Made by a program: the position numbers and the translations under genes. Source: Cladocopium goreaui (taxonomy: Eukaryota; Sar; Dinophyceae; Suessiales; Symbiodiniaceae). Taken from it: a stretch of 64,000 nucleotides of DNA. The notes below the pieces were generated by a model, which ran no database searches, was not told the origin of the DNA, and worked only from the letters and a program-made list of their open reading frames with translations. The stretch spans positions 1-64,000 of the forward strand of contig CAMXCT020001637.1 in assembly GCA_947184155.2 (NCBI GenBank). The letters run 5' to 3'. This document shows, piece after piece, positions 1 to 25,464 of the stretch (the stretch's first letter is position 1; each line of letters opens with the position of its first letter).

Positions 1-2
1 CT

Positions 3-3000
3 GACAAGCCCAAAGGTGACAAGGGAAAGCAGCAAAAGAAGCCCCAGCCGAAAGCTGAAAAGAGCAAAGGTAAGGGAAAGATGCACGAGTTGGCAGAGGA
101 GAATGGGCAGGAAGCTGCTCCAGCACAAGGTGAGGTGCTGATGCCATTGATTTCTTCAGTTGAACATTCGGGTGATGAGTGGCGATGGTGGTTGATTGAC
201 AGTGGAGCAGCTGTCTCAGTGTTGTCTGAGCAGTTCAAGGCCTACTACAAGTGCAGCGCAGAAGAGCAGGTGATGGACACCTACTATGCAGCCAATGGGT
301 CTGCAGTCACCATGAGAGGTGAAGTTCCGGTGACAGTTGCGTTTGAGACGGGATCTGGTTCCAAGAAGTCTCAGAACTTTCGTTTGAAGTGCTGCGTAGG
401 CTCCACCAGCCACAACATTGTGAGCACAACCCAGCTTGTGAAGCGTGGATGGACAGTTGTTCAGTCGCCAGGTGAGACCTATCTTTGGCATGAAGAGTTG
501 AATACCGTGATCACTGATGTGGTGTTGTGGGGAGGATGTCCCTGGCTGAGAGCCAAGAAGACAACATCTCAGGTTCCTGCTTTGAAGGATACCTACATGC
601 CGATGGAAGTTGATGTGCCAATGGAGTCAGTGAGGACCGGGCAAGGCTTGACTGTTGGTATGGTAGGTGCGGTTGAGTTGTCAACCCAGGAGAGACTGCG
701 TCAACACATCTTGAGAGGCCATTATCCGTATGACCCTCATTGTTTGGAATGTCAACAGGGCCGTGGTGTTTCCAGAGCACCCAGGCGAGATTTGAAAGAG
801 CGCTTGCTTGAGGTACAGGTTGACTTCATGTTCTTGGGAACAGTTGGATCGCAGTACAAGTTCTTGTTGTTTCGTCACTGTTTCAGTGGTTTGTTGGGTG
901 TCTGCGCTGTGAGCGAGAGTCTTGACACCACCGGCCAACATGTCCGCCAAATCTTGGCAGAGTTTGGACTGTTGTCTGGAGATCCAAAGCCGATTGACTT
1001 CAGGTCAGATGCGTCCGATGAACTTGGGACGACGTTGAGAAGAGCTGGTATTCCAAGAGAATTTACCGTCAGCAAAGCAGGTCCCCAGAACCATGATCCT
1101 GTTGGTTCAGTGGAGCGTGGAGTCCGTGAGCTGAAAGAAGGTCTTGCGGTACTGAGACTCGAATTGGGGAAAGCAGGTGTTGACGTGGTCAACAGTTTGG
1201 TTGGCTGGGAAGCCAGTTCAAGGTATGTGATTGCGATGCACAACTTGCATTCGAAGTTGGATGGCACAGGATTGAGTGGACGAGAGGTCCTGAGAAACCA
1301 GGTTGATCAGAAGAATGCTGTCACAGCGATGTTCTGTTCTAGGGTTCTTGCGGAGACACCTGACAGTGTGAACAGCATCGGGAGGTTTGTGACTGCTGGA
1401 TACCTGTATCCTGTGAGGAACTCGTTTGCACACTTTGTAGTTGCGTTGATTGAAGGTGAACTGAAATCTTTCCAAGCGAAGAGCCTGAAGCTCGTTTTTC
1501 CAATTGTGTATCCTCTGGAATTGGTTGGAAGGTTCTTGCGTGCAGTGGACTCTGCTGGACCTGCACCCGCCATCTTGGACCAGGAACCGATTGAGATCGT
1601 TCCAGAGGACTTTGCACGTCTGCCCGACAAGGTGCAACCTCCACGGCATTGGATTGATGCCCATGGACGGACCGAAGGTTGTAGTTCTTGTGCTACTCGT
1701 CAAGGTCAACACTCCAAGAAGTGCTGTGAGCGCTATTGGACATGGCTTCGGAACCAGAGATCCAAAGAAGCCGTTGTGCCTGAGAAACAACTCCCACTTG
1801 CCGAGCCCAATGACCAAGAAGTGGCGGTACCAGGACCATCACAGCCACTACCAAAGATTCCAGGTTTGCCATCTGGAATGTTGCCTACAAGGCACTGTCC
1901 GAGTTGTGAATCAGGTATGAATGCCCCTGGCACCCGCCATTCGGCTGAGTGCCGCAAGAGGCAAGGTGAGTTCTTGTCTACTCCTATCAAGCCGTCGCTT
2001 GAGGATGTGGAGCAAGCTTTGGAGCAAGCAGGTGAAGGTGAAGACGTCCCCTACTCACCATCTCTGGGTCCCGAACATGCTGATCTTGCCGATGTGGACA
2101 TGGATTTACCACTTGAGGCGAGTTCTGCACCAGCTGAGGCTGCATCCTTTTCGGAGCGAGACGCTCCAGAATTTCAATCCGAAGATGTTGAGATGGAAGT
2201 TGAACAGCCACAGACGATCCCGATGATCGATGTGTGTCTTTGCTCTGAGAGAGTCAGGATTGGATGTTTGACTTCTCCCGATCTGCTCTCCGAGGAGCGG
2301 TTCTCCGTTGAGTCTATCAGTTTTTCAGGTGGAGCTCATGACTCTGAAGTTGTTGAGCTATGTGGATCCAAGGTTCGATTGTGGAAGCCAACAGGAGCTG
2401 TTTCGGATACCACTCTTGAAGAACTGGACCCCCAAGGAACTTTCCTTGCGATGGTCAAAGAGCTCAAGGGGCTGACTCATGTGAATGCAGGTCGCGTCAT
2501 GAAGGAGAAGGAAGCCTTGCAGTTCTGCAAGAAGCACAACATCAAAGTTATCTCCTGCAGGTGGGTTACGAACAGTAAGCCTGAAGCCGACGAAGGAGTT
2601 CGTGCTCGGATAGTCGTGAAAGATTTCGCTAAAGGTCAGAAGACCGCCAGGCAGGAAGGTATCTCTTCCCCCACACCCTCGATTGAGTCGCTACGACTTC
2701 TGTTGGGAGCGGCAACGGGTATGTGGACTGGTGGAAAAGGTTTCAACCTTTATGCGGTTGACGTCAGTCAGGCGTTCATGAATTCACCGCTCACTGTGAA
2801 GGTTTGTGTCCGGCTTCCATCATCAATCAGCACACTTGACAATGAACCGGTTTTCCTTGAGGCTTACAAGGGTTTGAATGGACTTCGTATCGCAAGTTTG
2901 ACTTGGGTTCTGTTCTTTGATGGGATTGTCAAAAGCGTTGGCATCCGATCTGGTGTGGAGCCATGCTTGTACGGTGGGATGGTACGGGGTGCCCCCATCC

Positions 3001-4082
3001 TTGTCATCTGTTATGTTGATGACCTGTTGGTTGCCACGCCCAGCGAGGCTGCGTATCGTGTTCTGTTTGAAGCTCTTGAGAAGCAGGTCAAGATCCGAGA
3101 GACTGGCCGAGTGACCATGTCTGGTGGTTCATTGAAGTTTCTAGGCCGTACCATCCTCAGAGAGAAGGGAAGCTCAGGTTTGCAGTTGTTTGTCGACCAG
3201 GATTACCTGAACAGTGCGTTCGAGGAGTATGGAATCTCCAAAGGTTCCACTGCATTTCCTGATCTTCGTCCATTTTTGGAGCAGACACTGCAAGAAGAGC
3301 CTATCAGCGCTGAGGCGCACTCCAAGTTCAGGAGAGTTCTTGGACGTCTGTCATGGCTGGCACAGACCCGACAGGATATCTTGATCCTGATCGCAATGCT
3401 GTCGACTGGACAATCTTGTCCAAAGCCAGGCCATGAGAAAGCTCTGCGAGCCGTGCTTCGATTTATGTTGTTGCACATGAAGATGTCCCAGAAATTTCCC
3501 TCACCTGGACTTGAGGACCTTTCTGAGAAGGACATCGGTCTGGAAGTCTATAGTGATGCTGGATTTGCCCCTATGCAAGCTACTCAGAGGAGAAGTATCA
3601 CTGGATGTGTTATTGTTTTCCGATGTGTTGTTTTGAAGTGTTTCTCTCGACATCAGGCATCTGTGACGTTGAGTTCATGCGAGGCAGAGCTCGTTGCCGT
3701 TCAGGCAGCTGTCCAAGAAGCCATTGGTTTGCTGAGAAGTTTGAGTTTTGTCCTGCGTCGCATTCAGGTATATCCACCGTCTTTGTCCGAGGACGACAGC
3801 TTGGATTTTGTCTGTCCGATCCTCTTGTGGACTGACTCCCTGAGTGGGAAGATGCTTTTGGAAGGTTCCGACCTCCAGCGTAGGTCAAGACATATCGATA
3901 TCAAAGTGAACTGGTTGAGAGAACTTTTGGGAAAAGAAATCCTGCAAATTGGACATGTCAGAGGAACTGGAAACGTCGCTGACCATTTTACCAAATGTTT
4001 GCCGACGATCAAAGCGTTGCAGTACATGGAAATACTTGGTTTTTCGTCGTTTGAAGGTATTTTTTTTGGACTGTTTGCTTGA
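3..4082 (+). CDS. Copia Gag(end)-protease-integrase-RT-RNase H polyprotein
   Basis: Open from the window edge, so the true start is upstream. The first residues are the lysine-rich end of Gag. The aspartic protease active site reads WWLIDSGAAVSVL (about 190-230). The integrase has an HHCC zinc part (HILRGHYPYDPHCLEC, about 708-755) and a catalytic D...D...E (VDFMFLG, FRSDASDE, SVERGVREL). RT follows, with YVDDLL near 3013-3030. The copia RNase H has YSDAGF, SSCEAEL, LWTDSLSGK and ADHFTK (about 3545-4000). The frame ends at 4082 only because of one extra T near 4055; in element 2 the frame runs on into the extension. These enzymes make and integrate the cDNA of the element. The polyprotein up to RNase H is undamaged here, unlike in element 2. 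Confidence 0.9.
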   Translation, partial: DKPKGDKGKQQKKPQPKAEKSKGKGKMHELAEENGQEAAPAQGEVLMPLISSVEHSGDEWRWWLIDSGAAVSVLSEQFKAYYKCSAEEQVMDTYYAANGSAVTMRGEVPVTVAFETGSGSKKSQNFRLKCCVGSTSHNIVSTTQLVKRGWTVVQSPGETYLWHEELNTVITDVVLWGGCPWLRAKKTTSQVPALKDTYMPMEVDVPMESVRTGQGLTVGMVGAVELSTQERLRQHILRGHYPYDPHCLECQQGRGVSRAPRRDLKERLLEVQVDFMFLGTVGSQYKFLLFRHCFSGLLGVCAVSESLDTTGQHVRQILAEFGLLSGDPKPIDFRSDASDELGTTLRRAGIPREFTVSKAGPQNHDPVGSVERGVRELKEGLAVLRLELGKAGVDVVNSLVGWEASSRYVIAMHNLHSKLDGTGLSGREVLRNQVDQKNAVTAMFCSRVLAETPDSVNSIGRFVTAGYLYPVRNSFAHFVVALIEGELKSFQAKSLKLVFPIVYPLELVGRFLRAVDSAGPAPAILDQEPIEIVPEDFARLPDKVQPPRHWIDAHGRTEGCSSCATRQGQHSKKCCERYWTWLRNQRSKEAVVPEKQLPLAEPNDQEVAVPGPSQPLPKIPGLPSGMLPTRHCPSCESGMNAPGTRHSAECRKRQGEFLSTPIKPSLEDVEQALEQAGEGEDVPYSPSLGPEHADLADVDMDLPLEASSAPAEAASFSERDAPEFQSEDVEMEVEQPQTIPMIDVCLCSERVRIGCLTSPDLLSEERFSVESISFSGGAHDSEVVELCGSKVRLWKPTGAVSDTTLEELDPQGTFLAMVKELKGLTHVNAGRVMKEKEALQFCKKHNIKVISCRWVTNSKPEADEGVRARIVVKDFAKGQKTARQEGISSPTPSIESLRLLLGAATGMWTGGKGFNLYAVDVSQAFMNSPLTVKVCVRLPSSISTLDNEPVFLEAYKGLNGLRIASLTWVLFFDGIVKSVGIRSGVEPCLYGGMVRGAPILVICYVDDLLVATPSEAAYRVLFEALEKQVKIRETGRVTMSGGSLKFLGRTILREKGSSGLQLFVDQDYLNSAFEEYGISKGSTAFPDLRPFLEQTLQEEPISAEAHSKFRRVLGRLSWLAQTRQDILILIAMLSTGQSCPKPGHEKALRAVLRFMLLHMKMSQKFPSPGLEDLSEKDIGLEVYSDAGFAPMQATQRRSITGCVIVFRCVVLKCFSRHQASVTLSSCEAELVAVQAAVQEAIGLLRSLSFVLRRIQVYPPSLSEDDSLDFVCPILLWTDSLSGKMLLEGSDLQRRSRHIDIKVNWLRELLGKEILQIGHVRGTGNVADHFTKCLPTIKALQYMEILGFSSFEGIFFGLFA

Positions 4083-6861
4083 TTTTGAAATCCGCGACAA
4101 CAGTTTTTCAGGTCTTTTGTGTGCTTTTTCAACCAGAAACTGCATGTTTTGTGGAGAGTTGATTTGTGAAGAACCTGCCAATTCAACAACTTGTGAATTG
4201 TCGCCATTTCCACGTTCATGCACTCATATGATCAATGCACTTGTAGCTGTTTGCGAAAGGTTTCAAGGCGAGGGAATTGGTTCCGCTATGGCTGGACGTA
4301 TCCCTGCAGAACGAGAAGAGCCCAGAGCGCCGGACAGCCATGCGCTCCTTGGGCATCCAACAGCTGAAGGTGTCGGTGCGGCACCTGAATCTGATGATAC
4401 GGTTACCATCATAGGTGGTGAAGCCAATGCTGCGACTGTTGCGGTGACATCTGCAGAGGCAGTGGTGCCAACTGCTGAGGCAGTGCCGAAGGCAGCAGAG
4501 GCTGCAGCTCCCCCTGCCGCTACTGAAGCGGCACCAGGTGCACCAGTTGCATCAGAGACTGCAGCTGCCGAGGCTGAGGATGTTGTGAAGGTCACTCCAA
4601 AGAAAGCTCAGCCGCCGAGGCCCAAGGAGAAAGCCATGCCTACTACTCGAGGCAGACCTGAAGCGAAAGCAAGGCCGTCAGGAAGGTCTCAAGCTCCTGG
4701 ACGTGAACCTGCTGTGAAGAAAATGCCCAGGAAGCCTGGTCGCTTTGTGATTCAGGTGAAGAAAGAGGCCTGGGAGGCCACTGGTCTGCTGAAGAGACGA
4801 CGCGAGGCTGGTCGTCGTAAGGCCAAGCGTCAGGCTTGGAAGAATAGGTAGAAGGAAGCGTTTGCATACTTCGCTGCTCAGAGGAGAGAAGAGGAGTCCC
4901 GGCCAACGCCTACATATGAGGTTGTGAGAGGGTCGAGATTGCCAGGTCAGAGAAGGGTCATGCGAAGGATGTACAACCCTCAGTTGAACAAGAGAGAGGA
5001 GTTGGAGATCAACCCGAAAGCTGAGGAGGAAAAAGGACCCGCCTTTGTGAGGTCTTTCAGTGGATTCAGCTGGAAGAATCCGAAGGGTCTGAAGTGTGGT
5101 CATTGTGGAGAGAAAGGCCATATCATCTCTCAGTGCCCTGAGATGGAGCGAAGGGTGAGCCTTACTCATGGGCGTGTGACTTTGACGCCAAGAGGACAGC
5201 ACCAGCCAGACTCCACTGTGGGCGATGAGGTTGCCCCGGGTGATTCAATTTCACAGGTTGGACTAACCCAGGAGTCACTACGCATACACAACAAGAGGCT
5301 AAGAGGCCATGGTTGGTCCGAGGAGGCCCCACCAGCCGCAGGTAGCCCTCCGAGAGCCCGTCAGAGGACTGGGATGGGTCCCCCTCAGACGCCACCGAAG
5401 AGGAGCGGCCAGTTTCCGGCCAGCAGCAATGCGGCAGTGGCGATGGGTCCAAAGCCGCCTGCACATCCGCCGAAGGGGTGGGTTCCGCAAGGGCCACAGC
5501 CACCACAGGCACCACCCATCTCTGGGAAGGCCCCTCCAGCAATGCCTTCTCCAGCCCAGAGCCCTCTACCACCACCGCCAGCGCCCCCGGCGCCACCTCA
5601 GGTACCACCACCGCCGCCAGCTCCAAGAAGAGTTTCAAGTGCGCCAAAGATGCCACCCAAGACGCCTCCAAAGGCGAAATCTGGAGAGCCCACATCGCCT
5701 AAGGCGAGTCCAGGTGCAAAGGCAGCACCAACTGTGGATTTGGTTACTCCAAAGAGCCCTGAAGCGAAAGCAGCGTCGCTTGGAGGTGAGTTGCCCCATA
5801 GGCCATTCCGAGTTGGCCCAGGAGGAGCACTGGAAGCTGAGACAATTGGCCCCTCATCGGGGTACAGTATGTCTATGATTTCAAGGACCCCAGTTGCAAA
5901 GGCACCGGCCAGTGAGGCCCCGCCAGAGCCTTCTGAGACATCAGGGAGACCGCCCCAGCGTCGTATGGAAGCCTGCATAGCATGTCATGGCAGTGGAGAG
6001 CTTCCGATGCGATCGAATCGGAGGTTGTTCAGGTTGTTGACATCGTCAACAGCGTCAGCAGCAACTGCAAATGCAGCTGCTCGAGGTGGAGCAACAGCCA
6101 GTGTTTTGTCTGCAATTTCAGGTTCAAGTTCTTCAGAAGCTGATGTGACCCATTTCAAGAGTGAAAGGGGGGTAGGTCTTTTTGTTGAGCTAGCCTGCAG
6201 CAAAGCCAGTGTCTTGTCAGCTGCATGTGCTGAGAGCCGTGCTTGTTATGTTGGAGTTCATGGAAATCTTGAGAAGATAGCTACACAGAATCATGTTGCA
6301 GATCTTGTGAACCAGGTGATGGAGGAGTTGAAGATGACCAGATCAGCCTCTGATCGAGAGCTGGGAGAGGTGCATTTGTTCTGTCACGTTCACATGTCAT
6401 TACCGTGCACAGGTGGATCTCCATTGCAGAATTTTTCGGGTGGGAAAAGAGTCCCAGAGCATGAGCGAAAGTTTTTCGAACTTCTAGCCGCTTGTGAAAA
6501 GTTGTTGGATCGGTTAGTAAAAAGACATCCCGAGTTGTCTATGTCTTTTGAATTGCCAAATTCCAACAGGTATTGGACTCATCCGAAGCTGCAAGCCTTT
6601 GTTCAGGCCAGAATTCCATTCAGGTCTGTTGTCCATGCTTGTGCAATGGGAATTGAAGGACTGCCAGGATTACCCATCAAGAAAGCGTTCAGGATCATGT
6701 CAAGTTCTGAGGAGCTTAGTCAACGTCTTGAGAAGCGTTTTCATTGTGCTTGTGATTTTCACGCATCATTCAATTTTTCTGACTTTCAGTTGTCAGAGAG
6801 ATACTCCAGGAAATTTGCCAGATTCTTTGTGCGAATGCTCGCATTACTTGCCCTCAGGTGA
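4083..6861 (+). pseudogene. C-terminal extension of copia polyprotein with CCHC knuckle and methyltransferase-like domain (broken)
   Basis: This was the continuation of pol, as element 2 shows; here it is cut off by the +1 T near 4055 and interrupted by an in-frame TAG at 4849-4851 where element 2 has CAG. Order: Cys-containing start; Ala-rich, then basic Lys/Arg/Pro stretch (4290-4850); CCHC knuckle CGHCGEKGHIISQCP (about 5094-5138); Pro-rich region (5330-5960); CIACHGSGEL motif; then a globular domain (about 6160-6861). That domain has a Rossmann/SAM motif I-like LFVELACSKASVLSAAC followed by YVGV, an LPCTGGSP motif (about 6400-6423) and SFELPNSNRYW. PC near the middle and E-L-P downstream recall motifs IV and VI of cytosine methyltransferases, but the match is distant. 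Methylation activity is inference. Confidence 0.7.
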
Positions 6862-7145
6862 TCGATGGCGTCGAAGCTACGCTGATTTTATCGCCTGATC
6901 TTCCCTGAGGAAAAAGGAAGAGTCTGCTGCATGAGTGAACTTGTGAGATTCTTTTTGGATAGCTTGAACGACTTGTGAAGTCATCTGGATAGAGAAAGGT
7001 CTTTAAATGTCTAAGACATGAGGCTGAAAACTCTCTTTGATTGTTGCCCTGTGCGTTGCTTGGGTAGTCGGATCTAATTATCGAGACTTTGAGGTCTGAC
7101 GATTGCATGGTATAGTTCTGAATCCAATTTGAATTGCAAGAGTTG

Positions 7146-7293
7146 CAGAAGTCTTTAGAAGACATCGAGAGGATGATCTTTGGACTTTCTTGGTCGCAGA
7201 AGTCTTTAGAAGACATCGAGAGGATGATCTTTGGACTTTCGGAGATACAGAAGTCTTTAGAAGACATCGAGAGGATGATCTTTGGACTTTCTG
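7146..7293 (+). repeat. Three 51-bp tandem repeats upstream of the small ORF
   Basis: A 51-bp unit beginning CAGAAGTCTTTAGAAGACAT starts at 7146, 7197 and 7248. The 51 bp length keeps reading frame, so several frames stay open across it. The same array is at 16424-16570 in element 2, so it belongs to the element. It contains short inverted AGTCTTTAGAAGACA-like palindromes. Confidence 0.85.
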
Positions 7294-7420
7294 GGATTGT
7301 TTTTGGACTTTCCTTGATGGACTGTCTTTGGAATGTTTGTGGACTGCTTGGAATGGATTTCAGCATGAGCTTGATTGGATTTCCGCAGCCATTTGTGTGT
7401 GTGGGCAGGTCGCGCAAGCC

Positions 7421-7882
7421 ATGGCCACTGGAGAGATGGAAGAGCTCTACTGGCTCTTATTCTTTGTATATACACTGGGTTTTCTATCTGGTATTCTTTC
7501 AGCTTGCTGCATTACGAGATGTTGCAAAAGCCGCAATACAACTGCAAGAAATTCAGGTACAGCTATGAAGAGTCCTACAGCTTTGTCTTGTGATTCTGAC
7601 GGTGAAGGCCCAGGTACTCGTATCTATTGGAGTTTTTGCCGAGAGATGTATCACTGCAATGAGAAATGCAAGGTTTTGATTGCCGCCGCTGGTCCAAATG
7701 GACATATTCGATGCCGAGACAATTGCCAGGTTTGCCAACCGGAGACTGGACCCTTGTTGGTTGTGACTTCAACAGGATCGAAGTATCACTGTTCAGGTTG
7801 CCGTACAACGGAGAAGTCAAAGCAGATGACGCTGTTAGCATGCCCTATCTGCTACGGCATGGGAAATGTCAAGGCCGAGTGA
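7421..7882 (+). CDS. Small membrane-anchored cysteine-rich protein of the copia element
   Basis: A 153-residue protein from ATG 7421. This start is shared with element 2 (16292, minus strand), whereas sequence further upstream differs in frame. Residues 8-30 form a hydrophobic segment (YWLLFFVYTLGFLSGILSAC), probably one membrane span, followed by CCITRCC. Two cysteine clusters follow, YHCNEKC...CRDNCQVC and YHCSGC...LACPIC; both resemble a YHxxxC...CxxC zinc-ribbon-like motif. The ORF is preserved with almost no change in both copies although the polyproteins are broken. It lies between the extension and the 3' LTR, where envelope-like or accessory ORFs occur in other LTR elements. I do not recognise a family; the function is unknown. 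An upstream spliced part cannot be excluded. Confidence 0.6.
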   Translation: MATGEMEELYWLLFFVYTLGFLSGILSACCITRCCKSRNTTARNSGTAMKSPTALSCDSDGEGPGTRIYWSFCREMYHCNEKCKVLIAAAGPNGHIRCRDNCQVCQPETGPLLVVTSTGSKYHCSGCRTTEKSKQMTLLACPICYGMGNVKAE

Positions 7883-7928
7883 CTGAACTCGTTTTTTTGG
7901 ACTTGAGTCGCACAAGTTCGAAAGGGGG

Positions 7929-8473
7929 TGTGAAAAATCATCCTATGTATAGCTAGCGTAGCGATCTTGTGCTTGTACTTAGGTAGTTGTTAGTTGCTTT
8001 GTAGTTGTAGTTTGTGGACTTGCGTAGTTTGGACTCTGTTTTGTAGTTAGCAGGTGATTGTGATGTAGTTAATCGATCTCATCTCATTCCGTCACAAAGA
8101 GTTGTGACGGAGTTGCCATTTTTCGTTTGTAGTTAGCCGTTTTTAGGTTTTTTGCACGTTGTAGGTTATTCCACACGAGAACCAAACTGCACGAAACCAA
8201 TCTTAGGTTTTTGCCACGTAGAAGTTTGTTTTTTGCACGTGCCTAGATTTGTAGAATCGTTTCTGGAACTGCTATGACCCAACGTAAACGTTGGCTCAAG
8301 ACCCGCGAGTTCGAAAAGGGTGAGTGTGTCGCCGTGAGACGGCCTGGGAAAGTTGACACAGACAGAAACGCGAAACGACCACCGTTTGTTTGTGTTTTGG
8401 TTTGGGTTTACTTTGTGCACGAGAGGTTTGAAAGCGGTTTTCGCGATCTAACTTTGTGTGTCAAAGTTTTACG
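7929..8473 (+). repeat. 3' LTR of element 1
   Basis: 545 bp beginning TGTGAAAAATC just after the polypurine tract and ending TTTTACG, matched nearly base for base by both LTRs of element 2. It holds a perfect hairpin (TCCGTCACAA, loop AGAG, TTGTGACGGA) at 8088-8111. It also holds TTGGCTCAAG at 8291-8300, identical to the last 10 nt of the dinoflagellate spliced leader. The end is CG instead of the usual CA in all three copies. Confidence 0.92.
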
Positions 8474-9369
8474 GCCCCACACAGGGCCAAAGGCCTTTAG
8501 TGCCATGAGACACAATGAAGAGGGGAAATCAATGCACAACAATCACTCCAAGCACAGAGGCAAGGCAACCAGACCGTCGCCGGAAGCAACGATACCCAGA
8601 GGGAGGGACCAGTAAAACCTGGACCAAGGCGCCAAGGAGGAACATCCGAGGGGGAGTGAGGGTCACGTCAGGCAGGGAACAGTAACCACAAACCGAAAGG
8701 GACAGAAAAAGGCACCAACACCTAATGAAGCTCTGCGGATGGCAAAACCTATGGATGAGTCAGCGAATTCAAGTGCCTTGGTTGGTGGAAAGGGTGGGGG
8801 AGTGGGTGGCTAATCAAGACTACATCTGGGGACAACAACAGCATCTTCACCCATCGATGATTGTCAGGCAAAGCCTGCGAGAAAGCGAGTGCGTGCACTA
8901 AGCTTCATGGCAGAGGCAACCTTAGAACAAGCTAAGCTCTCGACGGGACAGCACATTCAGAAAGCGGGTATTACCGAAGCCATGCGGCCCGATCTGTTAT
9001 GCCTAAGCTGGCACTCGCACACAAAGCCAACTGTGGCTCCCAACTGATGGAGAGATCTGGGTTGGTTGGAGCCAGGCATGTGTCGCATGATGAGCCTAAC
9101 AATTATAAATGGGGAAACTGTGTCTCCTGCTGCATACCAGTGCACCTGTCACGTCTTTGGACAGACACACTGCGTATGAGCAGTAAACTTAAGTAGATGT
9201 GACGATTGAACCAATTAGACACGTAAGTCATCTTCCACCACCGTGATTGATGAAACACAAGCCAACCAAAGGGTGAAAACCCAGAGTGAAACAGAAAAGA
9301 GATAAGGGGAGCGGGGAGAGGGGGTAGACACACGAAGGAAAGTGTGATACTGGGGGGTTGAGCTGGGGA
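8474..9369 (-). other. Non-coding tail of helicase unit A
   Basis: About 900 bp immediately downstream (minus strand) of the helicase stop. No convincing ORF. It aligns by eye along its whole length with 28406-29428 next to copy B, with many substitutions and small indels, so it is part of the duplicated unit: a 3' UTR or the end of a larger repeat. Element 1 entered at its left end. Confidence 0.75.
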
Positions 9370-12300
9370 TCATGTCATACCTCTCGTGAAATGTTCCAGA
9401 TGGTGTTTTTTGTCTGCTGTAATGGTGTCATACCATTCATTGGTGAGCCCAAATGAAACTGGGTTCACTGCTTGCTGGGCAGTAGCACGCTGATGAAGCG
9501 CTCTGAGCGCCCTTCGATGTTCATCCAGATCTTCCGGAGGGACCCTCCGGCGGACTCGCCTGTCTGGGAAGTTTCGTTCCCGCAGGTTGGTTTGCAAGGC
9601 ATGTTCCGCTATATGGACTGCTGGTTGCTGGAATAAAACTCGCTCCGCAAATCTGTCGAGATGGACTGTCCACTCAGCAAACATGTGGCTGTGTGACAGT
9701 TGCTTCCTGAGTCGCGCTTCTGTTTGATGAAGGCTCCCATTCATATGCCACAATAGTAAAAGACTGTAGTTGGAAGGCCAGTCAAGTGGGCACAGTGTGG
9801 CTGTTTCTTTCCATTTTTCAGGGGTAAGCCCTTCTGGAGAGGGAATAATCACTTCAAGAGTAGTACGATTCGATCCAAGGGGTTGGAGACCTCGCAGCAT
9901 ACATGGTTCAACGAGCCCTGTGGTGTAGCCATTGATGAGCTCCTGGAAGCTTCCAGCCATTTGAAAGTCTTCATCCAACCCCAGGTGAAAACCAGGTAAA
10001 TTTTTAGCAACAAATTTAACTGCTTGGAGCAGCTGCTTTTCTCCTTCCAAGGGAGTCTCGTCATAGGAACGTTTCGGGCACGTGATGTTGATTTCTTGAG
10101 GTTTCTGTGCATTCTCAGGAGCATTCTCGAGGAGTTTGGGAGCAATTTTACTGGCCCAACTAGCCGGAAACCATGCCAAGAGGGCAGAGGCGCCACTCGT
10201 AAGGTCCACTAACCCAGTAGTGCGCCGATGCGGTCGATCTGTGACTAGGACTTTCACAGGGCCACTCGGCGCTCGACTCCGATTCACTTCAGAGCTCTCG
10301 CGGGCTGAGCCAATGAGTTCAGACAGGATGGGCCGAAACCAGTAAGGGGCATACAAAAGGCATTCAGTTTCTGGAGTCACCATGGATTCAGCCAATCTCA
10401 TCAACGAGCTCATCGCCTGGGCGAGCTTCTCTGCCAATCGAATTGTGAGAGCCCTAGCTGTTTGCATAAGGACATCCTCCACCTTGGCACCTTGCCCGCG
10501 CAACCACAGTTCACCGGCCACACTCAGCAAGACGCGCGCAAACTTTTCTTGGATGGCAATCAAGGACAACGTCAGTCTCGCCTGGAACCACAGCGGCGGG
10601 AGAATGCCAAGGTTTTCTGGTATGCAGAATGGGTTTCCGTCAGGTTGGATATTGTCAATTAACATTGCTAGCTTATCAGCTGCGCTCAAGATCTCGTCCT
10701 CAGAGGGATCTTCGGCTGCTTCAGGTATGGGTGGACACCATGAGATGGTAGGGTCGTCTGGATCACTTTCTCCATCGGTAGAGGCTGCTTCTTCATCCGA
10801 GGAGGGGTCACTCACTGTGTCTCTTGCACCCTCCGGGCTTGCAAGTTTCATAGTGCCTGGATCAAATTGGCGATCTAGTGTGGCCAAAAGCTCCGGTTGC
10901 AACCGATGGGCATCAAAATAATGGATACCAGGGATTACCACGAGTTGTCGATCCTGTATACCAGCATGAAAGAAAACCTTGTGACCTCTGTGTCGATGAA
11001 CGAGGGCTGGGGACCCATTGTAAGCTGCACACAGCCAGAGGGGAGATCTGTAACCATCCGCGGCGCAACCATATAGGTACTCACGATCAATTGAGCAGGG
11101 GAAAAATCCGCTGGTCGTCAGCACATGGTCACGTGTGCGGGACTCTAGCGCTGCGAGGACATTAGGGGGAAGCCGTAGCCTGTCTCTGCATGCCACTACC
11201 AGCCGATATCGTCTCCACGCTCGTGTGCCATTGGTGGTCACTATCATGGCAATAGCAAGGGGCGGTTTATCTTGGGGAGTAAAGGGCACCGATAATCCCC
11301 AGTCCAGTATGGCACATCTGTCGCTGGGGTAGTGTGTAGGGCCATGGTACTGAATGTCACGGGCTTTCAACGTGAAGTATCCGTAATGGTAAACCCCTAT
11401 TGTCTGGGCCATTCCAATCATGCCTGCCATGTCAAGAGGCGAGACAATATAGGTATGGTCAATGGCTCTTGTCAGCGCTACAGTTGCCCTTCCATAGCAG
11501 TCCTCGCGCTCGTCTGCAGTTGAATCTCTCCGTCCTCCACTGAGAAAGCCTACCCCTGTTTGAACAATGACAGCAATGCGTGCTGTCGCTCCTGCAGCAG
11601 AGGAGGTGGTGGAAACTCGCAGCCCACCATACCACTCGGTCTGAAAGCCATGTTGGAGTAGCAAATTATGTACAGCCGTACGGTTGCATAAGACAAGCAG
11701 CTGCGAGGTCGCTCCCTGTTGCAAGTTACGATAATAATTCTTCAGGTAGGTACAGAAGGCAACCACATCCTCAACTGCAGACCTGAGATCCTTAGGGGCT
11801 TTCCACAATACTGTGCGGAAGCCTCCAATGGCTACAGTGGACTCATGTGGCACGAAATGGCCAATGTAGATATGGTTGGGCTCATGGAGGACTAACTCCG
11901 GATATCGAACTGCAACGATGGCTTGGTAGGTCAGCATTGAAACTCGTGAGCTGTTAGGGAGAATGATGCCCCATCGATGAGGACAACAGAGTCCAGCTGC
12001 TTCAAGGGTCGTGGTGCACGCAGGTACCCCAAACTCCTCTGGTGCTGTGGCAATCAGCAAGACTGCGAGCACCGCTGCAATGAGGCTGCTGTGTGCATCC
12101 AACTGGCACGAAATTCGGCAGTGGAACACCCGCCTTAGGGCGACAGGCAGCTCGTAATCTTGCGGAGTGGATGTCCATGGGCCACTGTGCGGCTTGTTTG
12201 CAAGTCTCAGCAGACTGAAGAGCTCTGACTCCGGATCTTGGCTCGCATCAGGCCACAGCTGAGCTACGAGGGCTGCCATTCGTGCTGGTGGAAAATAGTC

Positions 12301-12723
12301 GCCGGACTTATCAAGCGCTCGGAGCCCCAACGGCCGTTGCAACAGTTTACGTCGATTGACAGCCGCTGCTCGGCCTTTGGATAGCCCTCCTGGAGTTTGC
12401 CTGTGGTCTCCAATAAAGACAGTCAGCATTGGCTGTTGTATGGCAGCAAGAGCTGCAATCTCATGGTAATTGCCATACTGTTGACTTTCGTCCATAAAGG
12501 CAAGCCAGGTGCGAGAAATCCAATGGCCAAAAGTGGAGTAGCGCATCGCCATTTCCGCCGTAGCTGAGCCACCTGTTGCGATGAGTATATTCTTATGTGA
12601 GATGATTCTATTACGGTCACTACATCGGACGTCAATTTTGGAGGCGTACGCCTCTCCTTTGCCCTCCTCCATGCGTCCAATTAGCCTGCCGAAGTTCTTG
12701 ATTGTGGGGGGGCGCAAGATCAC
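9370..12723 (-). pseudogene. UPF1-like SF1 helicase, copy A, motif II to C-terminus
   Basis: Minus strand, 1117 codons. It has the DEXX-type motif II MDESQQYGNYHEIAAL (about 12460-12505), motif III TVFIGDHRQTPGG (about 12390-12420) and motifs V/VI TGVGFLSGGRR...ATVALTRAIDHTY (about 11455-11560). The GFL...VALTRA arrangement is like UPF1/Dna2-type superfamily-1 helicases. A C-terminal part of some 650 residues follows, including an acidic SDPSSDEEAAS linker, and is not recognised. The frame does not join directly to the upstream part with Walker A: a run of seven C (minus strand, near 12713) puts it one base out. This suggests a pseudogene, although an intron there cannot be excluded. No HUH replication initiator is seen, arguing against Helitron. 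Copy B is a close paralogue. Confidence 0.75.
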
Positions 12724-14323
12724 TCACTTGATCCGCTAGTGCTTTGGCAGCTACATTCTCTTTAGTGTAGACGATTGCAATAAAGTCATTCAGTTCGCAG
12801 CTTAGGGCAATGAGCAGGACCGCAAGGGACCGCGTTTTGCCAGCACCAAAAACCCCTGCAATACATAAGTCAGATCTTCCAGTCATAATGGCCAACAAGA
12901 GTGCAATTGAGACTGTCAGGACATGTCCATCACCGTGTGCTGCTAGAGGAAGGAGATGTTCATGATAGTAACTGTCATGGGCCCCATCCATCGAGATCGC
13001 AGCTGGTGTCAAAAATCGGCTCAGAATTCTGACTAACGCATCAGTCAGTTGCGTTTTGCGCTCGCTAGCCATACGGCGAACAGGTATATGCGGCTGCACG
13101 ATGCCCATTGCCAATGGTAGGCGCGACTGGTTAGCTTGTGCAAACACTAAGAGTTCATGGCGGCTGCGTGTGTCTCCCAGAAAGGCCAACTCTTCCAAAA
13201 CAACGGCCATGGACGGGTGGTCTTCAATGGGTTTCAGCCAATCCTGTGCAGGATCAAAATAACTCATTGTTCTAAGATGCTGATCCAAAAGTCGCCCACA
13301 AAAGGTCCGAGCAATAGGCAGAGAGACAATAACAAGCTCTTGCATCTTTGGGCCAGTGCGCTTGAGCGCTCTTTGAACAGGGTTTTTGCTAGTTCCGCTC
13401 GACATCACCTTCTCATGTACCAATGCTATGACACAACGCTGCTGATTGTCTGGCAACTGGAATATACCCAGCAGGGCTCTGCCTGCCATCACGTTCGCTT
13501 CCAAGTTGCCCAGGTTCCCAGCTTCACAGAGAGCACGCGGCGACAGCGCTGGAACATCGGAAGGTGCACTAAATAGCAGGAGTGGGGCACCATCAGTATG
13601 TAGGTGGATGACATGAAATCCGGCATACGCCTCATATTGATAGGTAACCTGTAACCGTGTTCCAGTCTGTCCTCGCTTCTTCTGCTGAGCAAGTTCTACA
13701 CTGACCCAAGGCTGTAGATGTTGGAGCTGCCGTCCCGCATGATAGGCGTCTAATTGCGGAAGCACCATGTCCAGGAGGAAGATGAGGGTGCGTAGGGAAA
13801 AGCCACGCAGGAATTCCGCCAGTAAGTTGCGAACTAGCAATCCTCCCTCATCATGGGACCCTCCCGGTGTGGGAATCATCGCAATCAGGGCTGCTTGCAG
13901 TTCAGCTTCCGTTTCAGGCTGGCCATCCCGGATATCCCGTCCGTCAATGGGCACTGTGTGCAGTTCAGCGTTCCCTTCACCAGCTGCTACTAACAGAGAA
14001 CTTAGAGTTGTCTTGAGGTGTTCCGGAAGGTCAAAGCTAACCCATGAAAGTACACGCAGCAAACCCTCGCAACGTACCCCATGTGGAATGACTTGAGGGG
14101 TAGTGATTTGTAGTCTTTGGACTTCATGAACCCCTTCGTCAAGATCAATGAAGAGCAAGTGGCCATAGGAGTGTTTAGCACGTCCACTCCATGTGGGGTG
14201 CCCTTCTATCAGAACAATCTGATAGTTGAATTCTGTCAGAGAGTCAGGTTTCCACACACAAAGCCGGTCCTCCAGGCAGTGCACCAGTGTGACTGTGCGT
14301 TCGCCCGTGGCAAGTCGCATCAT
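12632..14323 (-). pseudogene. Helicase copy A, middle part with Walker A
   Basis: Minus strand, about 535 meaningful codons. The only clear motif is near its end: Walker A CIAGVFGAGKTRSLAVLL (about 12830-12866), then a motif Ia-like AIVYTKENVAAKALADQV, just before the frameshift near 12713. The N-terminal 480 residues are unrecognised. The frame begins ATG ATG directly after an in-frame TAG (14324-14326), and sequence upstream of the TAG is in the same frame. So this is either a separately started ORF or, more likely, a gene interrupted by a nonsense change. Confidence 0.65.
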
Positions 14324-14866: not shown

Positions 14867-15244
14867 CCCCTAGTCCACTGCAATGCACTTCAAGGGGTCG
14901 GTCTTGCATCGGGACGTCATCTTGCCAGACTTCAGCGAGGGAAAAGACCCAGAAGGCCCACTCTGCAGAGCCTGTGAGGGCTACGGGCAGCGCATCTGCG
15001 GGTTGGCCCCCACTGTAGTGTTGTTTGGACACTTCCCCAATATCTATGGCCTGCTCGTTGACGGTGACTTCCCACTTAGCCATCTCTCTGAAGGGTAACG
15101 GAAGACCAAACGGGAGCTGCCTGCTGCAGCGATGTACATGAAGGTTCAGATTGTTCCTTCCGGTGCCACAGTCCACACAGCAATGTGAGTTGAGCTTGGG
15201 AGAGAGGAACAGGAGGCACTTTGGCATGCAGTCGCAGACCAACC
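14772..15244 (-). pseudogene. Helicase copy A, cysteine-rich segment
   Basis: Minus-strand frame entered from the 3' LTR of element 2. Just inside the junction it shows a Cys/His cluster: VCDCMPKC, then HCCVDCG, then HVHRC. This looks like a zinc-binding module, as expected in the N-terminal half of UPF1-like proteins, though I cannot assign the type. Frameshifted relative to the following segment. The preceding part of the same gene is probably 26010-26689, on the far side of element 2. Confidence 0.5.
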
Positions 15245-15781
15245 CGTAAAACTTTGACACACAAAGTTAGATCGCGAAAACCGCTTTCAAACATCTCGTG
15301 CACAAAGTAAACCCAAACCAAAACACAAACAAACGGTGGTCGTTTCGCGTTTCTGTCTGTGTCAGCTTTCCCAGGCCGTCTCACGGCGACCCTTTTCGAA
15401 CTCGCGGGTCTTGAGCCAACGTTTACGTTGGGTCATAGCAGTTCCAGAAACGATTCTACAAATCTAGACACGTGCAGAAAACAAACTTCTACGTGGCAAA
15501 AACCTAAGATTGGTTTCGTGCAGTTTGGTTCTCGTGTGGAATAACCTACAACGCGCAAAAAACCTAAAAACGACTAACTACCAACGAAAAATGGCAACTC
15601 CGTCACAACTCTTTGTGACGGAATGAGATGAGATCGATTAACTACATCACAATCACCTGCTGACTACAAAACAAAGTCCAAACTACGCAAGTCCACAAAC
15701 TACAACTACAAAGCAACTAACAACTACCTAAGTACAAGCACAAGATCGCTACGCTAGCTATACATAGGATGATTTTTCACA
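15245..15781 (-). repeat. 3' LTR of element 2
   Basis: 537 bp, 8 bp shorter than its partner because ACACTCAC is missing near 15390. It carries the same TCCGTCACAA hairpin (15599-15622) and spliced-leader-like CTTGAGCCAA complement (15410-15419). Confidence 0.92.
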
Positions 15782-15830
15782 CCCCCTTTCGAACTTGTGC
15801 GACTCAAGTCCAAAAAAAAAACGAGTTCAG

Positions 15831-16292
15831 TCACTCGGCCTTGACATTTCCCATGCCATAGCAGATAGGGCATGCTAACAGCGTCATCTGCTTTGACTTC
15901 TCCGTTGTACGGCAACCTGAACAGTGATACTTCGATCCTGTTGAAGTCACAACCAACAAGGGTCCAGTCTCCGGTTGGCAAACCTGGCAATTGTCTCGGC
16001 ATCGAATATGTCCATTTGGACCAGCGGCGGCAATCAAAACCTTGCATTTCTCATTGCAGTGATACATCTCTCGGCAAAAACTCCAATAGATACGAGTACT
16101 TGGGCCTTCACCGTCAGAATCACAAGACAAAGCTGTAGAACTCTTCATAGCTGTACCTGAATTTCTTGCAGTTGTATTGCGGCTTTTGCAACATCTCGTA
16201 ATGCAGCAAGCTGAAAGAATACCAGATAGAAAACCCAGTGTATATACAAAGAATAAGAGCCAGTAGAGCTCTTCCATCTCTCCAGTGGCCAT
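15831..16292 (-). CDS. Small membrane-anchored cysteine-rich protein, element 2 copy
   Basis: Minus strand from ATG 16292, 153 residues, the counterpart of 7421-7882. It has the same hydrophobic span (YWLLFFVYTLGFLSGILSAC) and the two YHC..C/CxxC clusters. Only a few residues differ (for example P to S twice). Upstream, a two-base difference in a CA run changes the frame, which supports ATG 16292 as the functional start. Kept intact while the polyprotein of the same element carries two frameshifts. Confidence 0.6.
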   Translation of the reverse strand: MATGEMEELYWLLFFVYTLGFLSGILSACCITRCCKSRNTTARNSGTAMKSSTALSCDSDGEGPSTRIYWSFCREMYHCNEKCKVLIAAAGPNGHIRCRDNCQVCQPETGPLLVVTSTGSKYHCSGCRTTEKSKQMTLLACPICYGMGNVKAE

Positions 16293-16423
16293 GGCTTGCG
16301 CGACCTGCCCACACACACACAAATGGCTGCGGAAATCCAATCAAGCTCATGCTGAAATCCATTCCAAGCAGTCCACAAACATTCCAAAGACAGTCCATCA
16401 AGGAAAGTCCAAAAACGATCCCA

Positions 16424-16570
16424 GAAAGTCCAAAGATCATCCTCTAGATGCCTTCTAAAGACTTCTGTATCTCCGAAAGTCCAAAGATCATCCTCTCGAT
16501 GTCTTCTAAAGACTTCTGCGACCTAGAAAGTCCAAAGATCATCCTCTCGATGTCTTCTAAAGACTTCTGC
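16424..16570 (-). repeat. 51-bp tandem repeats, element 2 copy
   Basis: Three imperfect 51-bp units, each with AGAAGTCTTTAGAAG on the minus strand, matching the array at 7146-7293 of element 1. Confidence 0.85.
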
Positions 16571-16879
16571 AACTCTTGCAATTCAAATTGGATTCAGAAC
16601 TATACCATGCAATCGTCAGACCTCAAAGTCTCGATAATTAGATCCGACTACCCAAGCAACGCACAGGGCAACGATCAAAGAGAGTTTTCAGCCTCATGTC
16701 TTAGACATTTAAAGACCTTTCTCTATCCAGATGACTTCACAAGTCTATCAAAACTTCAAGATGACTTCACAAGTCGTTCAAGCTATCCAAAATCTCACAA
16801 GTCCACTCATGCAGCAGACTCTTCCTTTTTCCTCAGGGAAGATCAGGCGATAAAATCAGCGTAGCTTCGACGCCATCGA

Positions 16880-18170
16880 TCACCTGAGGGCAAGTAATGC
16901 GAGCATTCGCACAAAGAATCTGGCAAATTTCCTGGAGTATTTCTCTGACAACTGAAAGTCAGAAAAATTGAATGATGCGTGGAAATCACAAGCACAATGA
17001 AAACGCTTCTCAAGACGTTGACTAAGCTCCTCAGAACTTGACATGATCCTGAACGCTTTCTTGATGGGTAATCCTGGCAGTCCTTCAATTCCCATTGCAC
17101 AAGCATGGACAACAGACCTGAATGGAATTCTGGCCTGAACAAAGGCTTGCAGCTTCGGATGAGTCCAATACCTGTTGGAATTTGGCAATTCAAAAGACAT
17201 AGACAACTCGGGATGTCTTTCTACTAACCGATCCAACAACTTTTCACAAGCAGCTAAAAGTTCGAAAAACCTTCGCTCATGCTCTGGGACTCTTTTCCCA
17301 CCCGAAAAATTCTGCAATGGAGATCCACCTGTGCACGGTAATGACATGTGAACGTGACAGAACAAATGCACCTCTCCCAGCTCTCGATCAGAGGCTGATC
17401 TGGTCATCTTCAACTCCTCCATCACCTGGTTCACAAGATCTGCAACATGATTCTGTGTAGCTATCTTCTCAAGATTTCCATGAACTCCAACATAACAAGC
17501 ACGGCTCTCAGCGCATGCAGCTGACAAGACACTGGCTTTGCTGCAGGCTAGCTCAACAAAAAGACCTACCCCCCTTTCACTCTTGAAATGGGTCACATCA
17601 GCTTCTGAAGAACTTGAACCTGAAATTGCAGACAAAACACTGGCCGTTGCTCCACCTCGAGCAGCTGCATTTGCAGTTGCTGCTGACGCTGTTGACGATG
17701 TCAACAACCTGAACAACCTCCGATTCGCTCGCATCGGAAGCTCTCCACTGCCATGACATGCTATGCAGGCTTCCATACGACGCTGGGGCGGTCTCCCTGA
17801 TGTCTCAGAAGGCTCTGGCGGGGCCTCACTGGCCGGTGCCTTTGCAACTGGGGTCCTTGAAATCATAGACATACTGTACCCCGATGAAGGGCCAATTGTC
17901 TCAGCTTCCAGTGCTCCTCCTGGGCCAACTCTGAATGGCCTATGGGGCGGCTCGCCCACAAGCGACGCTGCTTTCGCTTCAGGGCTCTTTGGAGTAACCA
18001 AATCCACAGTTGGTGCTGCCTTTGCACCTGGACTCGCCTTAGGCGATGTAGGCTCTCCAGATTTCGCCTTTGGAGGCGTCTTGGGTGGCGTCTTTGGCGC
18101 ACTTGAAACTCTTCTTGGAGCTGGCGGCGGTGGTGGTACCTGAGGTGGCGCCGGGGGCGCTGGCGGTGGT
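16880..18170 (-). pseudogene. Element 2 extension: proline-rich part and methyltransferase-like domain
   Basis: Minus strand, continuing the extension in a new frame after an inserted base near 18170 (an extra T compared with element 1 in the GCCCAG...CTACCACC segment). It contains the polyproline tract, CIACHGSGEL, and the C-terminal domain with LFVELACSKASVLSAAC, LPCTGGSP and SFELPNSNRYW, all conserved with element 1. That domain differs from element 1 by only a handful of residues. Function inferred only from the weak likeness to SAM-dependent methyltransferase motifs. Confidence 0.65.
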
Positions 18171-21100
18171 GGTAAGAAGGCCCTGGGCTGGAGAAGGCAT
18201 TGCTGGAGGGGCCTTCCCAGAGATGGGTGGTGCCTGTGGTGGCTGTGGCCCTTGCGGAACCCACCCCTTCGGTGGATGTGGAGGCGGCTTTGGACCCATC
18301 GCCATTGCCGCATTGCTGCTGGCCGGAAACTGGCCGCTCCTCTTTGGTGGCGTCTGAGGGGGACCCATCCCAGTTTTGTGACGAGCTCTTGGAGGGCTAC
18401 CTGCGGCTGCTGGGGCCTCCTCGGACCAACCGTGGCCTCTCAGCCTCTTGTTGTGGATACGTAGTGACTCCTGGGTCAATCCAACCTGTGAAATCGAATC
18501 ACCCGGGGCAACCTCATCGCCCACAGTGGAGTCTGGCTGGTGCTGTCCTCTTGGCGTCAAAGTCACACGCCCATGAGTAAGGCTCACCCTTCGCTCCATC
18601 TCAGGGCACTGAGAGATGATATGGCCTTTCTCTCCACAATGACCACACTTCAGACCCTTCGGATTCTTCCAGCTGAATCCACTGAAAGACCTCACAAAGG
18701 CGGGTCCTTTTTCCTCCTCAGCTTTCGGGTTGATCTCCAACTCCTCTCTCTTGTTTAACTGAGGGTTGTACATCCTTCGCATGACCCTTCTCTGACCTGG
18801 CAGTCTCGACCCTCTCACAACCTCATATGTAGGCGTTGGCCGGGACTCCTCTTCTCTCCTCTGAGCAGCGAAGTATGCAAACGCTTCCTTCTGCCTATTC
18901 TTCCAAGCCTGACGCTTGGCCTTACGACGACCAGCCTCGCGTCGTCTCTTCAGCAGACCAGTGGCCTCCCAGGCCTCTTTCTTCACCTGAATCACAAAGC
19001 GACCAGGCTTCCTGGGCATCTTCTTCACAGCAGGTTCACGTCCAGGAGCTTGAGACCTTCCTGACGGCCTTGCTTTCGCTTCAGGTCTGCCTCGAGTAGT
19101 AGGCATGGCTTTCTCCTTGGGCCTCGGCGGCTGAGCTTTCTTTGGAGTGACCTCCACAACATCCTCAGCCTCGGCAGCTGCAGTCTCTGATGCAACTGGT
19201 GCACCTGGTGCCGCTTCAGTAGCGGCAGGGGGAGCTGCAGCCTCTGCTGCCTTCGGCACTGCCTCAGCAGCTGGCACCACTGCCTCTGCAGATGTCACCG
19301 CAACAGTCGCAGTGTTGGCTTCACCACCTATGATGGTGACCGTATCATCAGATTCAGGTGCCGCACCGACACCTTCAGCTGTTGGATGCCCAAGGAGCGC
19401 ATGGCTGTCCGGCGCTCTGGGCTCTTCTCGTTCTGCAGGGATACGTCCAGCCATAGCGGAACCGATTCCCTCGCCTTGAAACCTTTCGCAAACAGCTACA
19501 AGTGCATTGATCATATGAGTGCATGAACGTGGAAATGGCGACAATTCACAAGTTGTTGAATTTGCAGGTTCTTCACAAATCAACTCTCCACAAAACATGC
19601 AGTTCCTGGTTGAAAACGCACACAAAAGACCTGAAAAACTGTTGTCGCGGATTTCAAAATCAAGCAAACAGTCCAAAAGAATACCTTCAAACGACGAAAA
19701 ACCAAGTATTTCCATGTACTGCAACGCTTTGATCGTCGGCAAACATTTGGTAAAATGGTCAGCGACGTTTCCAGTTCCTCTGACATGTCCAATTTGCAGG
19801 ATTTCTTTTCCCAAAAGTTCTCTCAACCAGTTCACTTTGATGTCGATATGTCTTGACCTACGCTGGAGGTCGGAACCTTCCAAAAGCATCTTCCCACTCA
19901 GGGAGTCAGTCCACAAGAGGATCGGACAGACAAAATCCAAGCTGTCGTCCTCGGACAAAGACGGTGGATATACCTGAATGCGACGCAGGACAAAACTCAA
20001 ACTTCTCAGCAAACCAATGGCTTCTTGGACAGCTGCCTGAACGGCAACGAGCTCTGCCTCGCATGAACTCAACGTCACAGATGCCTGATGTCGAGAGAAA
20101 CACTTCAAAACAACACATCGGAAAACAATAACGCACCCAGTGATGCTTCTCCTCTGAGTAGCTTGCATAGGGGCAAATCCAGCATCACTATAAACTTCCA
20201 GACCGATGTCTTTCTCAGAAAGGTCCTCAAGTCCAGGTGAGGGAAATTTCTGGGACATCTTCATGTGCAACAACATAAATCGAAGCACGGCTCGCAGAGC
20301 TTTCTCATGGCCTGGCTTTGGACAGGATTGTCCAGTTGACAGCATTGCAATCAGGATCAAGATATCCTGTCGGGTCTGTGCCAGCCATGACAGACGTCCA
20401 AGAACTCTCCTGAACTTGGAGTGCGCCTCAGCGCTGATAGGCTCTTCTTGCAGTGTCTGCTCCAAAAATGGACGAAGATCAGGAAATGCAGTGGAACCTT
20501 TGGAGATTCCATACTCCTCGAACGCACTGTTCAGGTAATCCTGGTCGACAAACAACTGCAAACCTGAGCTTCCCTTCTCTCGGAGGATGGTACGGCCTAG
20601 AAACTTCAATGAACCACCAGACATGGTCACTCGGCCAGTCTCTCGGATCTTGACCTGCTTCTCAAGAGCTTCAAACAGAACACGATACGCAGCCTCGCTG
20701 GGCGTGGCAACCAACAGGTCATCAACATAACAGATGACAAGGATGGGGGCACCCCGTACCATCCCACCGTACAAGCATGGCTCCACAAGTCCAGATCGGA
20801 TGCCAACGCTTTTGACAATCCCATCAAAGAACAGAACCCAAGTCAAACTTGCGATACGAAGTCCATTCAAACCCTTGTAAGCCTCAAGGAAAACCGGTTC
20901 ATTGTCAAGTGTGCTGATTGATGATGGAAGCCGGACACAAACCTTCACAGTGAGCGGTGAATTCATGAACGCCTGACTGACGTCAATCGCATAAAGGTTG
21001 AAACCTTTTCCACCAGTCCACATACCCGTTGCCGCTCCCAACAGAAGTCGTAGCGACTCAATCGAGGGTGTGGGGGAAGAAATACCTTCCTGCCTGGCGG

Positions 21101-25321: not shown

Positions 25322-25452
25322 TTCTGACACCTCGAAGTCAAACACACGACAGTCAAACGCAACTCACACCAACTTCCCTGGAACCAGGCACACACAAGAC
25401 GCACACAGGCGTGCCAGATCCTCACAGGATCTCTTGTGGAGGGAGCACACAA

Positions 25453-25464
25453 GCTCCGCTACCA
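25453..25464 (-). other. Primer binding site, element 2
   Basis: Minus strand TGGTAGCGGAGC directly after the 5' LTR end. TGG at its start pairs with the CCA end of a tRNA; the sequence is close to the initiator-Met tRNA primer site of many copia elements (TGGTATCAGAGC). The identical 12-mer is found in elements 3 and 4. Confidence 0.85.

Follow-up and report, generated by a model that had tools for sequence, protein, structure and literature searches.

Our results reveal that a Ty1/copia LTR retrotransposon family in the dinoflagellate Cladocopium goreaui extends its polyprotein by about 900 residues C-terminal to RNase H, and that the last 230 of these residues form a methyltransferase-like domain shared by many repeat families and kept under purifying selection. 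We consider it possible, with a probability of about 0.45, that this domain represents a diverged, methyltransferase-like enzyme of class I (Rossmann type) within Gag-Pol that would act on the C5 position of pyrimidines inside the particle, a reading that draws on profile similarity to m5C RNA methyltransferases and on a conserved Cys/Glu pair. The analysis covered a window, i.e., the whole stretch of 64,000 nucleotides (bases 1-64000 of contig C1637), and the genome to which it belongs (1.17 Gb in 6,202 contigs), in which the dinoflagellate spliced-leader sequence had 172 exact matches, versus 0 for the reversed control.

The window holds two copies of one Ty1/copia LTR retrotransposon family, copy A and copy B, with the following features.

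1-8474, + strand: element copy A, its 5' part cut off by the window edge, with a 3' LTR at about 7929-8474
3919-4851, + strand: copy A, first extension frame, Ala/Lys/Arg-rich (translation)
4852-6861, + strand: copy A, second extension frame, from the third CCHC knuckle to the end of the domain (translation)
5095-5136, + strand: third CCHC zinc knuckle, CGHCGEKGHIISQC, with its copy B counterpart at 18606-18647
5974-6003, + strand: CxxCxGxG motif ahead of the domain, found as a motif (Pfam DnaJ_CXXCXGXG at E 0.057 only)
6169-6858, + strand: methyltransferase-like domain of copy A, from homology across 12 aligned families and profile comparison
15242-26009, - strand: element copy B, with both LTRs (about 15242-15781 and about 25461-26009)
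16883-17572, - strand: methyltransferase-like domain of copy B, its protein 98.7% identical to that of copy A
18039-22379, - strand: copy B, RT, RNase H, and same-frame extension with the third CCHC knuckle and Pro-rich stretch (translation; RVT_2 E 1.4e-15)
22352-25363, - strand: copy B, Gag, CCHC knuckles, protease, and part of the integrase (translation; Pfam zf-CCHC E 1.7e-6; protease motif at 23519-23557)

The two copies are 98.2% identical over 8,509 aligned columns; positions 7929-8473 of copy A are 99.5% identical to the other LTR of copy B, and the paired LTRs present in copy B are 97.3% identical over 549 columns. Their RT is of the copia type (Pfam RVT_2, E 6.7e-15, and 1.4e-15 for copy B), and the motifs of copy A follow the copia order, with protease at 186, integrase-zinc at 720, RT YVDD at 3012, and RNase H at 3972.

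The extension is supported as a regular part of the polyprotein. It runs from an Ala/Lys/Arg-rich part through a third CCHC knuckle, a Pro-rich stretch, and a CxxCxGxG motif to the 230-residue domain. An earlier note on this DNA had the RNase H frame running straight into the extension; this is true of copy B, where a single minus-strand frame (18039-22379) takes in the third knuckle and enters the Pro-rich stretch, but not of copy A, for which it had been described, where the RNase H frame stops at 4082 and two frames share the extension. Ahead of the domain, copy B has a frame break (16880-18439). The Pro-rich stretch and the third knuckle that the note had described are both present, the latter (CGHCGEKGHIISQC) recovered by motif, with a Pfam zf-CCHC score of 17.6 bits that lies under the 20.8-bit cut-off. 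Likewise, the domain proved nearly unchanged between the two copies, as had been claimed, with 7 substitutions in 690 bp (4 silent and 3 amino-acid-changing). A motif similar to CxxCxGxG also occurs in one of the aligned families described below (family B, L036).

A second ORF follows the domain, ahead of the 3' LTR (7133-7882, + strand; 15831-16340, - strand), and encodes a 153-residue, Cys-rich protein with a hydrophobic stretch and no Pfam match. It was present in 29 of 30 loci of the window's family and full-length without a stop in 27 of the 30, the loci being the best protein matches. At window positions 7133-7300 (+ strand), a short repeat encodes VFRRHREDDLWTF units in the frame of this ORF.

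Genome-wide, a six-frame search recovered at least 151 matches to the domain, some of them partial, which is a lower bound, given that 150 of 2,492 candidates were scored in the first look. Among the matches listed, nearly all were 94-100% identical and two were 84% identical; 12 had an open frame of at least 2,780 aa, and the 11 of these that were stop-free inside the match had frames of 2,787-2,862 aa, six of them exactly 2,827 aa. The 30 loci fetched for the window's family as best protein matches all share the stop codon after the domain, and the upstream 1.5 kb was open in 18. Divergent relatives were sought with two gap-free codon patterns for PCTGGSP, built to leave out the codons of the window's own family, which gave 560 and 304 genome matches versus 2 and 15 for reversed controls; they were seen upon translating 30 loci per pattern plus further pieces, with one of the 30 loci retrieved by the second pattern (L086) reading as a chance match. 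The window domain was aligned with members of eleven further families (alignment A3, 12 families), and blastp within this set gave E <1e-3 in 59 of 66 pairs (E-values for a 12-sequence database), with family G linked to A, B, E, E3, and D.

The open frames of the further families range from about 1,470 to more than 6,000 aa, with many listed copies being shorter. Among the matches listed, the longest frames measured 6,125-6,162 aa, with one of 6,681 aa, in family C; about 4,400, 4,351-4,413, and 4,611-4,689 aa in D-type copies; 2,847-2,883 aa in family B; 1,471, 2,200, and 2,093 aa in E-type copies; and 2,413-2,432, 2,395-2,400, and 2,361-2,372 aa in others. For family G, 19 matches were full-length and at least 97% identical, with frames of up to 2,432 aa. 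A copia-like RNase H was recognized by eye about 55 and 85 residues upstream of the domain in families D (L045) and E (L046), respectively; Pfam on this region gave RVT_1 at E 0.023 and RVT_2 at E 0.079 for L046 and no match for L045. The same domain also occurs in families C and F2 (L034 and L061), where the flanks, about 500 residues on each side of it in family C, matched no Pfam family.

Four motif-like stretches of the domain are given here for copy A.

6181-6210, + strand: motif I-like strand and loop FVELACSKAS, which the family profile places on motif I of RsmB
6397-6423, + strand: motif IV-like SLPCTGGSP with the candidate catalytic Cys; the PC(T/S)G Cys occurs in 11 of 12 families
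6547-6576, + strand: motif VI-like FELPNSNRYW, with a Glu and a Trp invariant in 12 of 12 families
6742-6762, + strand: HCACDFH, a possible metal site, with Cys193 and His198 in 12 of 12 families

The three peptides by which the domain was originally noticed all lie between 6181 and 6576. Numbering residues from window base 6169, Pro79, Gly82, Glu128, Trp136, Cys193, His198, and Tyr212 are invariant across the 12 families, and Cys80, Gly83, and Cys158 (the last in 11 of 12) are nearly so. A Cys in motif IV combined with a Glu in motif VI is the layout of the DNA methyltransferases (DNMTs), and the pair in this domain suggests pyrimidine-C5 chemistry. RsmB catalysis, by comparison, relies on a Cys in motif VI; the corresponding TCS was not found in A3, where Glu128 is present instead in all 12 families. 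The motif-IV Cys aligns at the place of the RsmB motif-IV Cys, and Glu128 falls near the end of the motif-VI strand, in a part where the alignment is loose.

A relation of the domain to class I methyltransferases is probable but not proven, and comes through the RsmB-type m5C RNA methyltransferases (RsmB/NOP2/NSUN, Pfam family Methyltr_RsmB-F). The methyltransferase assignment of the earlier note stands to that extent, with moderate profile support via RsmB and not via DNMTs. Specifically, with hhalign, the 12-family profile, and sets of seven RsmB and nine DNMT proteins, the domain scored 28.7 against RsmB (P 0.0013, hhalign probability 18%) over 104 columns from motif I to motif IV, both of which are in register, and the RsmB PCSG is set against the PCTG/PCSG of the domain. 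Column shuffles reached this score in 0 of 60 and 0 of 300 cases (mean 12.2 and maximum 21.4 for the 300). The register was kept when any single RsmB template was omitted (scores of 23.4-31.9); it was also kept by motif I with motif IV masked (18.8; 0 of 200 shuffles, maximum 16.6) and by motif IV with motif I masked (22.8, a score without a separate null). As controls, DNMT versus RsmB, two accepted class I families, scored 33.3, and the domain scored 12.2 and 12.7 against the two halves of TrkA, 12.5 against RT, and 17.0 against Dam.

RsmB was chosen for comparison after DxC..P.GK and PCSG had been spotted by eye, and, since six target profiles were tried (DNMT, RsmB, two TrkA halves, Dam, and RT), the P of 0.0013 becomes about 0.008. 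TrkA is a Rossmann protein and no methyltransferase, and its N-terminal half scored 24.5 against RsmB and 20.4 against DNMT. The former score means that general Rossmann likeness could account for part of the 28.7, and it reduced our confidence in the main reading from 0.5 to 0.45. Subsets of the families scored 13.9 (A+B, the window's), 18.3 (D), and 18.8 (E) against RsmB, while C+F scored 27.0, but over only 29 columns around motif IV. Global hhalign gave no supportive result.

If the domain is indeed a class I-like enzyme, it would have the corresponding fold and use SAM, and it would most likely travel with Gag-Pol into the virus-like particle, where the adjoining third zinc knuckle may hold nucleic acid. 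The motif-IV Cys and motif-VI Glu would then do the catalysis, with the target being pyrimidine C5 in the RNA of the element, its tRNA primer, or new cDNA, and with some presumed benefit to the element. Against this reading count the hhalign probability of 18%, the low scores of the A+B, D, and E subsets, and the Glu in place of the RsmB motif-VI Cys, as well as the poor structure models, the lack of a convincing library hit, a CpG content like that of the surroundings, and the pN/pS of 0.44 in family B. Its catalytic part is further weakened by the missing glycine loop and by the loss of the Cys from one copy of family G (L096), although the frames of that family reach 2,432 aa. A more specific version, which we regard as rather unlikely in its entirety, is a copia-borne pyrimidine-C5 RNA (or RNA/cDNA) methyltransferase with RsmB-like motifs I-IV and a DNMT-like Cys/Glu site that would modify nucleic acid in the particle, would have spread through many long-ORF repeat families, and would escape Pfam-based surveys.

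Some of the same observations would be accommodated by a domain that is methyltransferase-derived, or otherwise of Rossmann type, and that binds nucleic acid or zinc in the particle in a structural, non-catalytic role, an alternative that we consider somewhat unlikely. The glycine-rich SAM loop of motif I is absent from the 12-family alignment, and in L096 PPSG replaces PCTG, a change that removes the candidate catalytic Cys but leaves Glu128 in place. Further, the invariant Cys193 and His198, together with Cys158, look like a metal site, and RsmB itself is somewhat like a non-methyltransferase Rossmann protein (TrkA). However, few features of the domain are as well kept as PC(T/S)G and the Glu, and this pair is not predicted by a purely structural role.

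The domain could also have nothing to do with methyltransferases and be another enzyme or fold, such as a thiol hydrolase, in which PCTGG and hydrophobic strands mimic methyltransferase motifs. No confident fold prediction speaks against such mimicry, and the profile probability is modest. AlphaFold2 models from a single sequence and from two sequences were poor (mean pLDDT 42.7 and 44.1), with a strand-helix-strand alternation in the N-terminal half of these low-confidence models that is suggestive at best, and Foldseek with the first of them returned nothing under E 0.8. Library searches gave no convincing relative of the domain: Pfam gave a best weak match of E 0.033 on one member, NCBIfam gave no match, PHROGs gave a best E of 0.018, and PDB sequence searches with one sequence and two profiles gave chance-level matches only (best E 0.29). 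Viral and prokaryotic contigs, searched with short peptide patterns and by tblastn with the first sequence only, yielded no confirmed relative. Nevertheless, two separate motifs fall in the RsmB register, each also with the other masked, and comparisons of the domain with RT and TrkA are at noise, which leaves mimicry by an unrelated fold quite improbable.

A true DNMT that marks the CpG sites of the element, as proposed for SymbioDIRS-Dnmt3, is more improbable still. Retrotransposon DNMTs do exist in Symbiodinium, according to one study (PMC5890265). The domain shares with the DNA C5 methyltransferases (PF00145, including a fragment at 53195-54028 of the window) the motif-IV Cys, a Glu after the next strand, and the motif order. 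In the best local DNMT alignment, the motifs I of the two profiles coincide, and equally good results came from 4 of 100 shuffles. In contrast to those enzymes, however, the domain lacks the glycine loop and a PF00145 match (0 of 12 family members, although the same library gives 4.8e-36 for another ORF in the window), and its profile lies near noise, with hhalign probabilities of 0.4-0.7% and 6 of 60 shuffles equally good. A forced full-length alignment matches the motif-IV Cys, but the Glu misses ENV. DNMTs as the nearest relative, our first guess, fell on these probabilities and shuffles, and the pointer to DNMTs in the earlier note gives way to the closer RsmB-type m5C RNA methyltransferases. 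The CpG content of the element, moreover, is not depleted relative to its surroundings (observed/expected of 0.63 for A and 0.67 for B, compared with 0.54-0.72 in other window stretches), and carries no signature of self-methylation by that comparison. Of the 106 substitutions that separate the copies, 27 are transitions in CpG context, a share compatible with general CpG methylation and not informative about the element in particular.

The domain is supported as being under purifying selection in families C and F2. We used Nei-Gojobori counts with uncorrected proportions on pairs of natural copies, which are not independent; loci for families C, F2, D, and B were fetched by a 20-base motif only, without protein bias, truncated and chance loci were left out, and pairs below 80% nucleotide identity were dropped. 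For the domain, the 14 copies of family C (91 of 91 pairs) gave a pN/pS of 0.07, the 29 of F2 (337 of 406 pairs, the rest being below 80% identity) 0.10, a single pair of family D 0.12, and the 5 copies of family B (9 of 10 pairs) 0.44. The region upstream gave 0.37 for 24 of the 91 pairs of C, 0.14 for 190 of the 406 of F2, 0.11 for D, and 0.65 for a single pair of B, and the downstream region gave 0.19 in C and 0.25 in F2. A value of 0.02 for family A was set aside, as its loci had been picked as best protein matches and are biased. The dN/dS check put forward with the original observation thus turned up no value near 1, and a neutral passenger acquired by chance, to which the broken state of both window copies might point, is hardly credible, given that the pN/pS values of all four families contradict neutrality and that the domain is found in 12 aligned families.

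Enzymes that modify nucleic acids have been described in other retroelements. De Mendoza and colleagues, who searched proteomes with Pfam models, report DNMTs in LINE and DIRS elements of Symbiodinium, state that copia lacks any DNMT domain, and consider methylation of RNA or cDNA for these elements (PMC5890265). The SymbioDIRS-Dnmt3 and SymbioLINE-Dnmt elements described there resemble the family reported here in being retrotransposons of dinoflagellates whose coding region includes a methyltransferase (inside Pol in the DIRS case) under purifying selection, but they are LINE and DIRS elements with PF00145 domains (PMC5890265). In orchids, Ty3/Gypsy elements carry an AlkB m6A RNA demethylase with activity in vitro, according to that report (PMC9289625). 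This is, by analogy, an earlier case of an RNA-modifying domain in LTR elements, as both cases involve an LTR retrotransposon with a fixed nucleic-acid-modification domain; the orchid enzyme differs in being an eraser encoded by an additional ORF of Gypsy elements, with its activity shown in vitro, whereas the copia domain is known from sequence alone. A review of accessory domains in retrotransposon polyproteins lists methylases in DIRS and Ty3/Gypsy elements, with the word "copia" not occurring in its accessible text (PMC6338049), and a heat-activated copia of Symbiodinium microadriaticum is the subject of a paper cited in PMC11453091. Across titles and the beginnings of abstracts, in a collection with most subscription journals outside it, no report of the domain was found. 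If the preferred reading of a class I-like modifying enzyme is true, nucleic-acid modification by retroelements in these algae would be wider than Pfam searches show, and a conserved domain missed by Pfam, NCBIfam, and PHROGs, in copia and other long-ORF families, would offer a concrete protein with which to ask why elements keep modifying enzymes.

Other features were observed in the same window. The fragment at 53195-54028 (+ strand) is a C5 DNA methyltransferase (PF00145, E 4.8e-36), with APCPAYS in motif IV and HhaI as its best PDB match, and is perhaps part of a SymbioLINE-Dnmt element. Two related sets of large ORFs at 9370-14323 and 29429-32631 (both - strand), 86-88% identical at the DNA level in parts, look by eye like a degraded helicase-type gene. 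Finally, long open frames at 48291-50647 (- strand) are built of a short repeated unit (THRRFYTQTLL-like) and are probably a tandem repeat rather than genes.
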